Source: Candidatus Gastranaerophilales bacterium (GTDB lineage: Bacteria > Cyanobacteriota > Vampirovibrionia > Gastranaerophilales > Gastranaerophilaceae). Taken from it: a stretch of 64,000 nt of DNA. Position 1 is the stretch's first letter; each line of letters opens with the position of its first letter. The DNA is taken from NCBI GenBank assembly GCA_944324385.1, contig CALUWD010000008.1:1-64000 (forward strand), given 5' to 3'. Below, in pieces: positions 1 to 12,867 of this stretch. The translations under genes and the position numbers were made by a program. The notes below the pieces were generated by a model. It searched no databases. It had not been told where the DNA came from and was given only the letters and a program-made list of their open reading frames with translations.

Positions 1-1340
1 TTTGTCTTATCGTACAGAGCAATATATGAAGCAGTACCACTGTAACCATTACTTGCATTAGTTCCAGAGGAGCTTGCCCCATTACCACCCTTTGCCCCCG
101 GGGCTGCATAAAATACAATTCTTCCTCCGATGTTATTTACTATTAAATCATCGGGAATTTGGTAGTTTTTAAAAAAAGATGCTCCACTACCTCCGCCGCC
201 CCCGTATGAGTTAAAGGTCTGAGCTCCGCCCTCCAGGACACAGCGAACCGAATTGGCGAAGCGAGGAAGATTGTAATTCGGGTAGAACGAACCGCTATCC
301 AGGTGGTATACGTAGTAATCGCCGTAATTGTAACCACCGGGTGTAGACGACCAGACGTCGCTCGGGCCGCATTGACCATTTGACCCATCGCAAACGCTGT
401 CGTAGTGGCATTCCGCTGCGCCGTAACCGTTGTAGAAGTCACAGAGCCTCAAGCCGTTATCACCTTTGTTTTTGTTAATAGTGTTAATGTTGCTTGCCCA
501 TTTAGATAATTCATTTTTAGTTGGTAATCTCCAATCACCAGCTTTTGTACCGTTGTAAGCTAATGCTTGACATGAAGCGTTACCTGCATACCAAGTGCAT
601 ACTGTTCTTCTGCAACCGCTGTAACCAGTTCCAGAGCTATTACATAGGTCAGCTGTTTTTCCTTGCCAACAACAACCATTTGTACTGTATCCATTACAAT
701 ATGAACCAGTTGATACAGTTGTAACACTTGCTGCTATCCCGCCATTTGGTGCATTAGGGATATCTCCAATATTCCATTTTGTAACACAAACCGGTTTTCC
801 ATTTTGCTCAGTAGTTAAAAATTTCGCATCATACTTATCACAATCTGCTTGAGAGGTTGGTGCACCACCTGTGCTTTCAGACCATGCTCCGCCTCCACCT
901 CCACCACCTGAGCCAGAGAGGTAACTTACAACAACATTTTTCATATTTTTTGTTATAGTTATTTCTTGAGTCTTAGCACTACCAATTGTAGAGTTTGTCA
1001 CTGTAAGTTTTTTACCATATTCAGTTGTTGGAGGCGTTCCACCTGCTCCACCTCCACCACCTGATACCATTACAACATTTACACTCTTTACACCAGTTCC
1101 TGTTGTAAAGTTGCAATCAAGAGCATTTTGCCCAGAAACTGCAGAGCAGTTTGGATCGGTTGGATTATACAAAAAAAGTTTACTTTCTTTTTTTGTACTT
1201 CCTCCTCCTGAAACATTAATATTACTTGTCACCCTTTTTGTAATTACAGGGGCTAAAACTACCATAATAATAGAAATAATAAGAGTTGATACCAACAACT
1301 CTGCAAGCGTAAACGCATGCCAATTTGCATACTTTTTCAT
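1..1340 (-). CDS. Type IV prepilin-like protein with DUF1566/FISUMP-like lectin domain (partial, 3' end outside window)
   Basis: The reading frame is open for 446 codons from the ATG at 1340 to the left edge, so the C-terminus is missing. The N-terminus is a prepilin leader: short basic stretch, A9|FTLAE with E14 as the +5 glutamate, then a hydrophobic helix. Gly-rich linkers follow (runs of G around residues 100-160). Residues about 200-370 look like a Lcl_C/DUF1566 or Fibrobacter-major-type C-type-lectin-like fold: many Cys, the hallmark GDWRLPTKNEL around 268-278, VWSST near 329-333 and VRCV at 365-368. A second Gly/Ser-rich part follows. It is probably a surface or pilus-linked adhesin. 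Bases about 205-470 are clearly GC-richer than the rest of the gene. The prepilin call is firm; the ligand is unknown. Confidence 0.85.
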   Translation of the reverse strand, partial: MKKYANWHAFTLAELLVSTLIISIIMVVLAPVITKRVTSNINVSGGGSTKKESKLFLYNPTDPNCSAVSGQNALDCNFTTGTGVKSVNVVMVSGGGGGAGGTPPTTEYGKKLTVTNSTIGSAKTQEITITKNMKNVVVSYLSGSGGGGGGGAWSESTGGAPTSQADCDKYDAKFLTTEQNGKPVCVTKWNIGDIPNAPNGGIAASVTTVSTGSYCNGYSTNGCCWQGKTADLCNSSGTGYSGCRRTVCTWYAGNASCQALAYNGTKAGDWRLPTKNELSKWASNINTINKNKGDNGLRLCDFYNGYGAAECHYDSVCDGSNGQCGPSDVWSSTPGGYNYGDYYVYHLDSGSFYPNYNLPRFANSVRCVLEGGAQTFNSYGGGGGSGASFFKNYQIPDDLIVNNIGGRIVFYAAPGAKGGNGASSSGTNASNGYSGTASYIALYDKT

Positions 1341-4535: not shown

Positions 4536-4697
4536 CTACATTAAACCTAACATTTTTTTGTACCAGCTGAACGTTTCAAGTTCAAGACCGTTAAATGTGG
4601 TTTTTAGGCATTGCTTTTTGAGGTAATGTTGAAATTCATCGTTGAATTTGGACTTGATTGTGGGTTTAACTTTTAATTTTTCTACAAGAGTTGACAT
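4536..4697 (-). CDS. Small protein of unknown function (53 aa)
   Basis: I do not recognise this protein. It starts MSTLVEKLKVKPTIKSK and ends in a Trp/Tyr-containing tail (FSWYKKMLGLM). ATG 4697 is preferred over the upstream in-frame Met at 4727 because GGGAGG sits 8 nt before it, one of the strongest ribosome sites in the window. It is basic and soluble, with no membrane segment. It is followed by a structured 3' region and the terminator at 4332-4366. Confidence 0.6.
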   Translation of the reverse strand: MSTLVEKLKVKPTIKSKFNDEFQHYLKKQCLKTTFNGLELETFSWYKKMLGLM

Positions 4698-4843
4698 AAT
4701 TTTTGCCTCCCATTTTTTAAAGCACACACGTAATCTAACAACCTTAAAAGTATTATATCATAAATTTTCAAATTTGTAAGCCCTTTTTATTACCCATGTG
4801 GCTAATCTTTAGGCTATTTTTGAATTTTTTTTGTAAATTTTTG

Positions 4844-5619: not shown

Positions 5620-6903
5620 GTGATTAAAAGGTATTCAAGAGAAAAAATTTCCTCTATTTGGGAATTAGAACAAAAATTTTCATACTATTTAAAAGTGGAA
5701 CTTGCTGTGTGTAAGGCTTATAACAAGCTTGGCAAAATTCCAGATAATGCACTAAAACACATTGAAAAAACAGCCTCTTTTGATGTTAATCGAATTGATG
5801 AAATTGAAAAGCAGGTGCGTCATGATGTCATTGCGTTTTTAACAAATGTTAATGAAAATGTTGGAGAGGAATTTTCCCCATATATTCACATGGGTTTAAC
5901 AAGCTCTGATGTTATAGATACAGCCTTTGCGCTGCAAATAAAAGACGCATCAGAGATAATAAATGAGGATTTAAATATTCTTTTAAATTCTATTTTAAAT
6001 TTAGCTAAAAAGCACAAAAATACAGTATGTTTAGGTCGCTCTCATGGTATTGGTGCTGAGGTTATAACCTTTGGTTTTAAGCTTTTAAACTGGTATGATA
6101 TGCTAGAGCGAGCAAAAGAACGCTTTAACTATGCCCTAAATGACATTTTGGTAGGGCAAATTTCAGGCCCTGTGGGTACTTATTCAAATGTTGATGTTGA
6201 TGTTGAAAAATTAACTTGCGAGCTTTTGGGTTTAAAGCCTGCTAAAATTTCAACCCAAGTAATAGCTCGAGATAGGCACAGTGCTTACATTAGCGCACTG
6301 GCGCATATTGGAGCTGCCATTGAAAACTTTGCAATTGAGATTAGACACTTGCAAAGGTGGGAAGTTTGCGAAGTTGAGGAAGGCTTTAAACAGGGGCAAA
6401 AAGGCTCATCTGCTATGCCGCATAAGAAAAATCCTATTGCAAGCGAAAATTTATCAGGGCTTGCACGTGTTGTAAGGTCAAATTCCATTGCAGCACTTGA
6501 AGATATTGCCCTCTGGCATGAAAGAGATATTTCGCACAGCAGTGTTGAGCGTGTAATTTTCCCTGATTCTACAATTTTAATTGATTATATGCTAAATCGC
6601 TTTAACAATGTGGTAAATAACCTTGTTGTTAAAGAAAAAAATATGATTAAAAATGTCCAAAAATATGGCGGGATAATTTATTCGCAAGCTTGCATGTTAA
6701 AATTAACCAAAAAAGGCTTAACTCGTGAGCAGGCTTATGAAATTGTCCAAAAAGAAGCACTTGGTGCATTTTCTCAAGGTGATGAGGGTAATTTTAAAGA
6801 AAATATGCGCGCACACTTGAGTGAGGATGAAATTCTTGAGTGCTTTGATGAGAAAAAATATTTAAAAAATATTGATGTAATTTATTCTCGCTTTGGTTTA
6901 TAA
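5620..6903 (+). CDS. purB: Adenylosuccinate lyase
   Basis: PurB catalyses two steps of purine synthesis: SAICAR to AICAR plus fumarate, and adenylosuccinate to AMP plus fumarate. The 427-residue length is normal for the short bacterial type. The fumarase/aspartase superfamily signature GSSAMPHKKNP lies near residues 260-272 and holds the catalytic Ser. The conserved GRSHGIGAE with the catalytic His is near residue 141, and GLTSSDVIDTA near 90. The start is GTG 5620, directly after a -10 box, so the mRNA is probably leaderless. No other purine gene is adjacent. Confidence is high. Confidence 0.96.
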   Translation: MIKRYSREKISSIWELEQKFSYYLKVELAVCKAYNKLGKIPDNALKHIEKTASFDVNRIDEIEKQVRHDVIAFLTNVNENVGEEFSPYIHMGLTSSDVIDTAFALQIKDASEIINEDLNILLNSILNLAKKHKNTVCLGRSHGIGAEVITFGFKLLNWYDMLERAKERFNYALNDILVGQISGPVGTYSNVDVDVEKLTCELLGLKPAKISTQVIARDRHSAYISALAHIGAAIENFAIEIRHLQRWEVCEVEEGFKQGQKGSSAMPHKKNPIASENLSGLARVVRSNSIAALEDIALWHERDISHSSVERVIFPDSTILIDYMLNRFNNVVNNLVVKEKNMIKNVQKYGGIIYSQACMLKLTKKGLTREQAYEIVQKEALGAFSQGDEGNFKENMRAHLSEDEILECFDEKKYLKNIDVIYSRFGL

Positions 6904-10996: not shown

Positions 10997-11893
10997 ATGA
11001 AGCACTTAATTGACATAAAAAGTCTAAAAAATGATGAAATACTTGAAATAATAGAACTTGCAAAGTATTACGAAAAAAACGTACCTTTAGGCACTCAAAA
11101 AAAGAAACAAAAAGGCTCGGTTGCACTTTTGTTTTTTGAAAACTCAACCCGCACAAGGTTTTCTTTTGAAATGGCATCAAGAAAATTAGGGTTTGATGTT
11201 TTTAATTTTGAAGCACAAAAGTCCTCTATTTTAAAAGGGGAGGGCTTTTTTGACACATTAAACAACCTAAATGCCATAGGCTGTGATATTGCAGTTATCA
11301 GGCACTCTAGAGAAGGTTTTATAGAAGAACTTGCCCAAAAGAATTATTCTTACGGGCTTTCGCTTATTAACGCAGGCGAAGGCAAGTCTGCTCACCCGAC
11401 GCAGGCACTTTTAGATTTTTATACTCTTAATAAACACTTAGGAACGCTCGAAGGTAAAAAAATAGTAATTGTTGGGGATATAGTACATTCTCGCGTTGCA
11501 AAATCAAACATAGAACTGCTTTCACGCTTTGGGGCGCAAGTTGTCTGCTGTTCGCCTGATTATTTTGAAGACTGGACTCTTGAGCACATTAAATACGAAC
11601 CAAACATAAATATTGCGCTAAAAGACGCCGATGCCGTTATGGGGCTTAGAATTCAAAAGGAAAGAATTGAAAATAATGTCCCCTACGCACAATATATTGC
11701 AGATTATCAAATAAATGAAAAAAATATGCCCGATAGTGCCATTTTAATGCACCCGGGACCTGTTAACAGAGATGTTGAAATCTCAAGCACTTTGCTTGAT
11801 ACAAAAGGTGAAATAATAATCGAGCAGCCAAGAAATGGTGTCTTTGTGCGCATGGCGGTGTTGGATTTAATTTTTGAGGGGGTTCAAAGATGA
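10997..11893 (+). CDS. pyrB: Aspartate carbamoyltransferase catalytic subunit
   Basis: PyrB makes carbamoyl aspartate from carbamoyl phosphate and aspartate. This 298-residue protein has the carbamoyl-phosphate loop ENSTRTRFSFE near residue 50, the HPTQALLDFYT segment near 133 and HPGPVNRDVE near 252. Asp-binding features rather than ornithine ones support ATCase over ArgF, and the operon context settles it. I chose ATG 10997, 1 nt after the pyrE stop, over an in-frame start at 10952 inside pyrE. No pyrI regulatory subunit is present, so allosteric control of the E. coli kind is unlikely. It overlaps pyrC by ATGA. Confidence 0.95.
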   Translation: MKHLIDIKSLKNDEILEIIELAKYYEKNVPLGTQKKKQKGSVALLFFENSTRTRFSFEMASRKLGFDVFNFEAQKSSILKGEGFFDTLNNLNAIGCDIAVIRHSREGFIEELAQKNYSYGLSLINAGEGKSAHPTQALLDFYTLNKHLGTLEGKKIVIVGDIVHSRVAKSNIELLSRFGAQVVCCSPDYFEDWTLEHIKYEPNINIALKDADAVMGLRIQKERIENNVPYAQYIADYQINEKNMPDSAILMHPGPVNRDVEISSTLLDTKGEIIIEQPRNGVFVRMAVLDLIFEGVQR

Positions 11894-12867
11894 ATATAGT
11901 TGAACTGCCAGCTTTTATTGATATGCACGTCCACTTTAGAGAACCGGGGTATGAGTACAAAGAAACCATTGAAACGGGTCTAAATGCCGCACTAAAAGGC
12001 GGATTTTGTGCAGTTTGCGCTATGCCTAATACAAATCCGGTTTGCGATAACATTGAAACGCTAAATTATATTCTTGAAAAATCAAAAGGGCATAAATGCA
12101 AGTTGTATCCAGTTTGTGCGGTTACAAAAAACTTAAATACAAATGAATTAGTTGATTTTGAGGCACTTGCAAACGCAGGTGCCGTTGCTTTTTCTAACGA
12201 TGGTTTGCCGATTTTAAATCACAGTGTTTTTTATAATGCACTAAAAAGCGAAAAATTAATCCTCTCGCACCTTGAAGATGAAACAAGAGAAGCTATTTGG
12301 CAAATTCAAATATTTGAAGAACTTGTGCGTGAAGGCTTTTCACCACGTCTGCATTTTTGTCATATTTCAAAAAAATCTACCCTTGAAGCTATAAAAGCGG
12401 CGAAAACAAGAGGTTTAAAAATAACTTGCGAGAGCGCACCGCATTATTTTACTTTTACAAAGCAAAATGTTACAGACACCGGCGTTTTTAAGATGAATCC
12501 GCCACTGGGTGAAGAATATGACAGGCTGGCAGTTATTGAAGCTATAAATGAGGGCACGATTGATGTTATCTCAACAGATCACGCTCCGCATGGAAACGAT
12601 GAAAAAACTTTGCCTTATGATAAATCACCAAACGGCATAACAGGGCTTGAAACCTCTTTTTCGCTGACTTATGCGCAATTTGGCTTGCAAAAAACGCTTG
12701 ATTTAATGTCAAATAATCCTGCAAAAATTTTAGGAATTGAAATAAAACAGAAAAATAAGTTTGATTTAGATAAAACTTACACTGTGCATGGGGCGGAATT
12801 TGCCTCTAAATGCAAGGTTACACCTTATGAAAATATGATTTTAAAAGGAGTTAAAATTGATGATTAA
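11890..12867 (+). CDS. pyrC: Dihydroorotase, short N-terminus
   Basis: PyrC closes carbamoyl aspartate to dihydroorotate with a two-zinc centre. The zinc His pair DMHVHFREPG lies at residues 11-20, followed by MPNTNP, FSNDG, SHLEDE, FCHISKKS and the catalytic Asp in STDHAPH near 234. At 325 residues it is about 100 shorter than Bacillus-type PyrC. The barrel begins almost at the first residue, so the N-terminal half of the urease-type beta-sandwich is missing. All metal ligands are visible, so it should be active. It starts in ATGA overlap with pyrB and overlaps pyrF by 8 bp. Confidence 0.92.
   Translation: MNIVELPAFIDMHVHFREPGYEYKETIETGLNAALKGGFCAVCAMPNTNPVCDNIETLNYILEKSKGHKCKLYPVCAVTKNLNTNELVDFEALANAGAVAFSNDGLPILNHSVFYNALKSEKLILSHLEDETREAIWQIQIFEELVREGFSPRLHFCHISKKSTLEAIKAAKTRGLKITCESAPHYFTFTKQNVTDTGVFKMNPPLGEEYDRLAVIEAINEGTIDVISTDHAPHGNDEKTLPYDKSPNGITGLETSFSLTYAQFGLQKTLDLMSNNPAKILGIEIKQKNKFDLDKTYTVHGAEFASKCKVTPYENMILKGVKIDD

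Follow-up and report, generated by a model that had tools for sequence, protein, structure and literature searches.

A lectin-like prepilin gene of a Gastranaerophilales bacterium very likely carries a variable region rewritten in trans by a diversity-generating retroelement

The stretch of DNA analysed here (the window) comprises bases 1-64000 of contig C8 (76,067 bp), from a Candidatus Gastranaerophilales genome of 1.69 Mb in 42 contigs that is 99% complete. The gene at 3-1340 on the minus strand runs off the contig start. The following features were identified in it, including the putative variable region (VR) of a diversity-generating retroelement (DGR):

3..1340, minus strand: putative DGR target gene (prepilin, C-type-lectin-like domain and start of a glycine-rich tail), 446 codons, truncated by the contig end
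1233..1316, minus strand: prepilin-type N-terminal motif and hydrophobic helix, residues 9-36, AFTLAELLVS..., with weak N_methyl and competence-pilin profiles
234..854, minus strand: lectin-like domain, residues 163-369, with an Lcl_C match and a model pLDDT of 85.5
233..447, minus strand: DGR VR (very likely), homologous to the template repeats at C8:70756-70964 and C19:1074-1282
233..251, minus strand: invariant 3′ end of the VR, IMH-like, TCGGTTCGCTGTGTCCTGG, common to the templates
324..332, minus strand: 9-nt insertion relative to all known templates, residues YNY, from the VR/template comparison
3..230, minus strand: start of the glycine-rich tail, which reaches ~400-430 residues in an intact ortholog

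That this gene encodes a prepilin is inferred from the sequence alone, and rests on weak profile matches together with the FTLAELL motif. PF07963 (N_methyl) matches the N-terminus at 0.0087 and ComGC-type profiles match residues 8-45 at 1e-4, both below cut-off. Further along the protein, Pfam Lcl_C (PF07603, formerly DUF1566) matches residues 221-368 above the gathering score and is followed by the start of a glycine-rich domain. A full-length structure model shows a helix at residues 12-39, and as a whole is too uncertain (pLDDT 57); therefore, the lectin domain was modelled alone (pLDDT 85.5, pTM 0.87). Its top PDB fold match by Foldseek was the C-type-lectin tip of the Bdellovibrio fibre Bd2740, with a probability of 0.96 and a TM-score of 0.67 by target, but with E=0.09; snake C-type lectins came next, at low probability. 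The authors of the Bd2740 structure likened its trimer to Mtd (PMC10769870). A PDB profile search with the lectin domain gave no match. The lectin-like fold is thus a model prediction that is supported by the fold match and not proven.

The original prediction was that a G+C-rich segment of this gene, with codons ending mostly in C or T, might be a DGR VR. The composition held exactly: G+C counts are 31/60 at 241-300 and 36/60 at 361-420 against 19/60 at 961-1020, and a count as high as 36/60 occurs in only 0.27% of 60-base windows across the 64 kb. The segment had been placed at 200-480 (205-470 for its repeat), which is sharpened here to 233-447, the stretch homologous to template; homology ends right after the IMH-like TCGGTTCGCTGTGTCCTGG. 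Within 233-447 G+C is 54%, compared to 39% for the gene upstream of it and 35% over the full window, and 77% of codons end in C or T versus 53% upstream. W330, the VRCV at residues 365-368 and the lectin-like DUF1566 assignment also held, the last for the Lcl_C match. So did the statements that neither a reverse transcriptase (RT) nor a template lies within the window and that the segment is not at the gene end. In the closest named relative, a sister species represented by the Candidatus Gastranaerophilales MAG G007 (RT 97% identical), the intact ortholog has 793 aa and its VR spans approximately residues 300-365, ending near 369, and is thus mid-gene and not at the 3′ end. The reading as a VR is itself supported, as an RT, an Avd-like protein and adenine-rich templates are present in the same genome. 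What failed was the expectation that these parts would lie just beyond base 1: they are ~70 kb away, towards the opposite end of contig C8, and the base-1 side in G007 holds an unrelated CorC-like gene and no DGR parts. As the parts are this remote and act in trans, the absence of an RT or template within ~10 kb, which had been offered as a refutation, is not valid here. The idea of a hypervariable adhesin on a type IV pilin fits, with the reservation that the pilin profiles are weak and the adhesin role is inferred.

A search for RT families across the whole genome returned two RTs. The DGR RT (C8:73.7-74.9 kb, minus strand, 392 aa) carries the motifs IGNLTSQ and YVDD and has BPP-1 bRT (8ub7, E=2e-33) as its top PDB match, the next RT following at 3e-6; it was typed by best match and motifs, without an RT tree. 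An IMG/VR pattern scan found no relative of this RT, and a viral origin is not supported. Upstream of it and overlapping its start, a position that fits an Avd, is an Avd-like ORF of 130 aa (C8:74.9-75.3 kb), which matches PF22296 bAvd (1.4e-7) and NF033474 DivGenRetAVD (2.5e-8), both below curated cut-offs. The second RT (C2:95243-96121, equal to L002:1390-2268; 292 aa) was rejected as a part of the DGR, being closest to retron RTs (PADLOC RT_VI, 3.8e-56; NCBIfam retron St85).

Two template repeats (TRs) of the window VR were found. TR_C8 (C8:70756-70964, minus strand) is adenine-rich, with AAY in 18/68 codons and 24, 31 and 5 template adenines at codon positions 1, 2 and 3, respectively; between it and the RT lies a paralog of the window gene on the opposite strand. 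The other TR (C19:1074-1282) adjoins a gene that we take to be ahcY, as read from the sequence without a profile. At least 11 VR-bearing gene copies occur in the genome. Contig ends fall in or beside this gene family (C8 start, C9 end, C16 end, C19 start, C23 start, C30 end, C31 start and C37 end), so that the family fragments the MAG and the counts of both copies and templates may be too low. On either side of the DGR locus lie numerous scattered short repeats of the GTCACCCTGAAC type (L003:5620-6110 and 11470-12068).

Comparison of sibling genes with these templates shows adenine-specific rewriting. The gene adjacent to the RT differs from TR_C8 at 20/60 template adenines and at 1/144 other bases (p=3e-11). 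Its counterpart in G007 is an adenine-only copy of a template 193 kb away (A 14/50, non-A 0/158, p=5e-10), and not of the template beside the RT; use of the remote template demonstrates action in trans. Moreover, the same pattern is seen between TR and VR in G253, a member of another genus, g22 (A 19/56, non-A 1/161, p=8e-12). Across the 11 VRs of the source genome there are 2.93 distinct bases at template-A columns versus 1.54 elsewhere (p=2e-18) and a mean of 4.4 amino acids per A-codon versus 1.4 at other codons, with a nearly invariant scaffold of Cys, Gly and Trp. For two diverged G007 targets (C10 at 31 kb and C12 at 44 kb), comparison with the known templates gave no clear A bias. A compact DGR is also present in a cyanobacterial-lineage MAG (JAKLDH010000007.1), with an RT 56% identical, a TR directly before the RT and a VR upstream; the pair (L057:346-460 and 1746-1860) differs at 12/42 A versus 0/73 non-A positions.

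The window VR differs from TR_C8, its nearest template, at 25/58 A and 16/144 non-A positions (p=1.1e-6), and no enrichment was found when C, G or T was taken as the reference base (p>=0.85). Whilst template repeats were found as predicted, the exact template of the window VR was not: the four templates of the source genome and G007 were each considered as its source and none fits by A changes alone. Relative to TR_C8 there remain 16 non-A mismatches, the 9-nt insertion and a 3-nt deletion, and we therefore infer that the true template is absent from the assembly, which breaks at these genes, or gone. The G007 C10 copy has the same 3-nt deletion and the TGCGGCCCG stretch, and from this it is likely, though an inference, that a common unseen template lies behind both. 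A syntenic ortholog of the window gene exists in G007, with matching neighbours on the upstream side and a distance of 74 kb from its RT, as in the source genome. The two differ at 50/202 sites in the VR, 4/117 in the 5′ flank (p=1e-7) and 0/33 in the 3′ flank; thus the VR has been replaced between flanks that are 97-100% identical. These differences fall at 29/58 template-A columns and 21/144 elsewhere (p=4e-7). The evidence for the window copy consists of homology, A bias and replacement relative to this ortholog, and includes no exact template.

The TRs themselves reside in cassettes of ~400 nt in which a near-invariant leader lies upstream of the TR, as is the case for both TRs of the source genome, both of G007 and one in G013. 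The cassette RNA folds such that closing helices (AAACACGUCU/AGACGUGUUU and ACUAAAC/GUUUAGU) pair the leader with bases just past the IMH-like end, and the cassette ends ~30 nt after the IMH-like sequence. The C19 cassette RNA folds 4.3 sd better than shuffles. When leaders of TR cassettes and of short cassettes lacking a TR were taken together, they showed covariation: 92.6% of cells were paired and 8 pairs had changed on both sides, a signal that collapses on a one-base slide. A search of Rfam with the leader-TR RNA returned no family and only a chance-level match. A covariance model of the leader alone, trained on the source genus only, matches 8/288 family genomes, including three in two other genera. 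All three have the same RT at 64-67% identity, and A-rich templates come after the leader in G253 and G079. By inference, the leader may recruit the RT and Avd. A match in G010 was rejected since it covers 23 bases only and has no cassette at the site. In genus g37, leader matches are followed by lectin-like cassettes (L162, L169, L175 in G050 and L186 in G079), two of them in tandem at L186, and these loci are further candidate cassette arrays. G004 has no detectable DGR RT, keeps the leader without a TR body at an ahcY-like locus and retains a lectin-prepilin gene (L115 = C26; L085 = C23), an apparent loss of the DGR.

In the congener G003, ~31 complete tandem silent lectin cassettes (L139:7284-15770, equal to G003:C1:341283-349770) come after the RT, Avd and target. 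The unit is 251-281 bp, with a GC of 51% in cassettes versus 22% in spacers; there is no stop codon in the 29 that were fully translated, and leaders occur at the ends and once inside. The expressed RT-adjacent VR is identical to one cassette (L139:14476) at 212/215 positions. From cassette to gene, both substitutions are A to T and one T is lost; with only two substitutions A-specific copying is not proven, and neither is RT-driven copying.

The RT-adjacent gene is one base short at the same spot at the VR 3′ end in four genomes (the source genome, G003, G005 and G012). The short allele is TCGGTCGC or similar, in place of TCGGTTCGC (sites L003:8374, L046:17, L048:103 and, on the minus strand, L139:5687), and the glycine-rich frame downstream stays open. 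The G007 RT-adjacent gene is in frame, as are the remote copies examined in G007 and the source genome. No slippery heptamer for programmed ribosomal frameshifting, which might rescue the RT-adjacent gene, was seen by eye. Short cassettes without a TR are found in four species (the source, G007, G003 and G013) and combine the DGR leader, the closing helix, a one-base-shorter IMH-like end and a terminator-like hairpin:

L003:6500-6700 (= C8:70499-70699), minus strand: short cassette
L105 ~4560-4750, minus strand: short cassette
L114:1490-1640: short cassette
L143 ~6000-6170, minus strand: short cassette

In those of the source genome and G003, the bases before the shorter IMH allele match the RT-adjacent gene. 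Decay of a TR was dropped as the sole reading of the cassette at C8:70499-70699, given its conservation in four species. As for the frameshift, an OFF allele, the inherited IMH of a spare acceptor copy and simple decay all remain possible. A bolder reading, which is no more than possible, is that the DGR of this lineage is a cassette-archive system in which dispersed leader-TR RNAs and, in G003, ~31 silent cassettes that are already diversified are copied by the RT into prepilin adhesins, while the short cassette with the shorter IMH-like end found also in the frameshifted RT-adjacent gene supplies an OFF allele; if true, one retroelement would both rewrite and switch its main target.

Taken together, we consider it very likely (probability ~0.94) that 233-447 of the window is the VR of a DGR target that is rewritten in trans, although ongoing variation is not shown. 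The work is based on one genome per species and on MAGs broken within these genes, with neither reads nor experiment. In the proposed mechanism, the DGR RT and its Avd-like partner would copy the leader-TR RNA into cDNA, with random bases inserted opposite template adenines. This cDNA would replace the homologous stretch in one of the prepilin-lectin genes, of which there are at least 11, and would reach targets in trans over tens to hundreds of kb. The product would be an adhesin or minor pilin whose prepilin helix serves as an anchor in the membrane or pilus, whose lectin-like domain displays ~30 hypervariable residues, and which continues into a glycine-rich region of ~400 residues. The parts and the adenine-specific rewriting of sibling genes are shown; RT activity, surface display and ligand binding are inferred.

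It could be argued that the window VR was assembled by RecA-type gene conversion among paralogs or silent cassettes and that the DGR acts directly on other copies only. Near-identical paralogs are numerous, no known template gives the window VR by A changes alone, the first codons of this VR (TTC TAC AAC) are also those of the C10 copy, and in G003 the expressed VR matches a silent cassette at 99% identity. However, the differences cluster at template-A columns even against the syntenic ortholog, and new variants would still need a source. Conversion of DGR-made variants would leave the same pattern and so the two explanations are not exclusive; conversion in place of direct rewriting appears unlikely. 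Ordinary positive selection on an adhesin patch, without targeted mutagenesis, would suit a surface-type protein that is variable in only part of its lectin-like domain. Yet sibling genes differ almost exclusively at adenines from a non-coding template in the three TR-VR pairs given above, which refutes selection as the sole explanation; with near-identical flanks and a genome that has a DGR RT and an Avd-like gene, it is all but excluded. It remains possible, though rather unlikely, that the window copy is a former target, now frozen and out of reach of the machinery, as non-A mismatches to every known template suggest that it was last rewritten from an older or lost one. Against this, the reading frame and IMH-like end are intact, and the VR differs from the ortholog at 25% of sites compared to 0-3% in the flanks.

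Much of this system resembles the DGR of BPP-1 (bRT, Avd, TR and Mtd), namely the RT type by best match, the Avd-like partner, the A-specific differences between TR and VR and the C-type-lectin-like target. Unlike BPP-1, the present system has a conserved structured element 5′ of the TR, mid-gene VRs and many targets. The structured spacer by which BPP-1 recruits bRT-Avd lies on the 3′ side of its TR RNA (PMC12875486), and therefore the 5′ arrangement is a variant. The Treponema denticola DGR (TvpA family; PMC4891356) is likewise chromosomal, with remote targets that are surface proteins of C-type-lectin fold; those are lipoproteins with a C-terminal VR, whereas the targets here are prepilins whose VR is internal, and the genome has several free-standing templates in place of one. 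DUF1566 (Lcl_C) is the commonest known DGR target domain, pilin-linked DUF1566 targets have been reported, and multiple VRs with two TRs are known, for example in Stenotrophomonas SKA14 (PMC6642488). In known DUF1566 targets the VR is described as C-terminal, in contrast to the ~400 glycine-rich residues that follow it here. Diversification in trans by an RT or TR elsewhere in the genome is shared with Thiohalocapsa PB-PSB1 (PMC10907252) and the multi-locus DGRs of cyanobacteria (PMC8867640), although their targets are described as putative conflict-system sensors and the relevant passages mention no such leader RNA. The anatomy of the G003 array, with one expressed copy and ~31 tandem silent cassettes, is like that of Borrelia vls (PMC11499132), but is accompanied by a DGR RT, an Avd-like gene and leader RNA elements.

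DUF1566 targets, their link to pilins, multiple VRs and TRs and remote targets are therefore already known (PMC6642488, PMC4891356, PMC10907252). The departures from textbook DGRs are the mid-gene VR, templates as compact RNA cassettes, the ~31-cassette array and an unexplained frameshift in four species. We found no description of leader-TR RNA cassettes or a cassette array in the DUF1566/pilin DGR literature searched. Nor did we find a paper on DGRs of Gastranaerophilales/Melainabacteria, or on a cassette array beside a DGR RT, in the open-access literature searched, subscription papers being mostly outside it.

In summary, these data add uncultured gut Gastranaerophilales to the bacteria with programmed hypermutation, here of pilin-like adhesins, and offer a testable way in which a commensal might go on altering its adhesion partners. 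Roux et al. note that remote targets escape their survey method, and the leader-only covariance model gives a handle on remote DGR templates missed by RT-centred surveys. Moreover, the presence of silent cassettes next to a DGR RT suggests that two variation mechanisms, usually kept apart, are linked.
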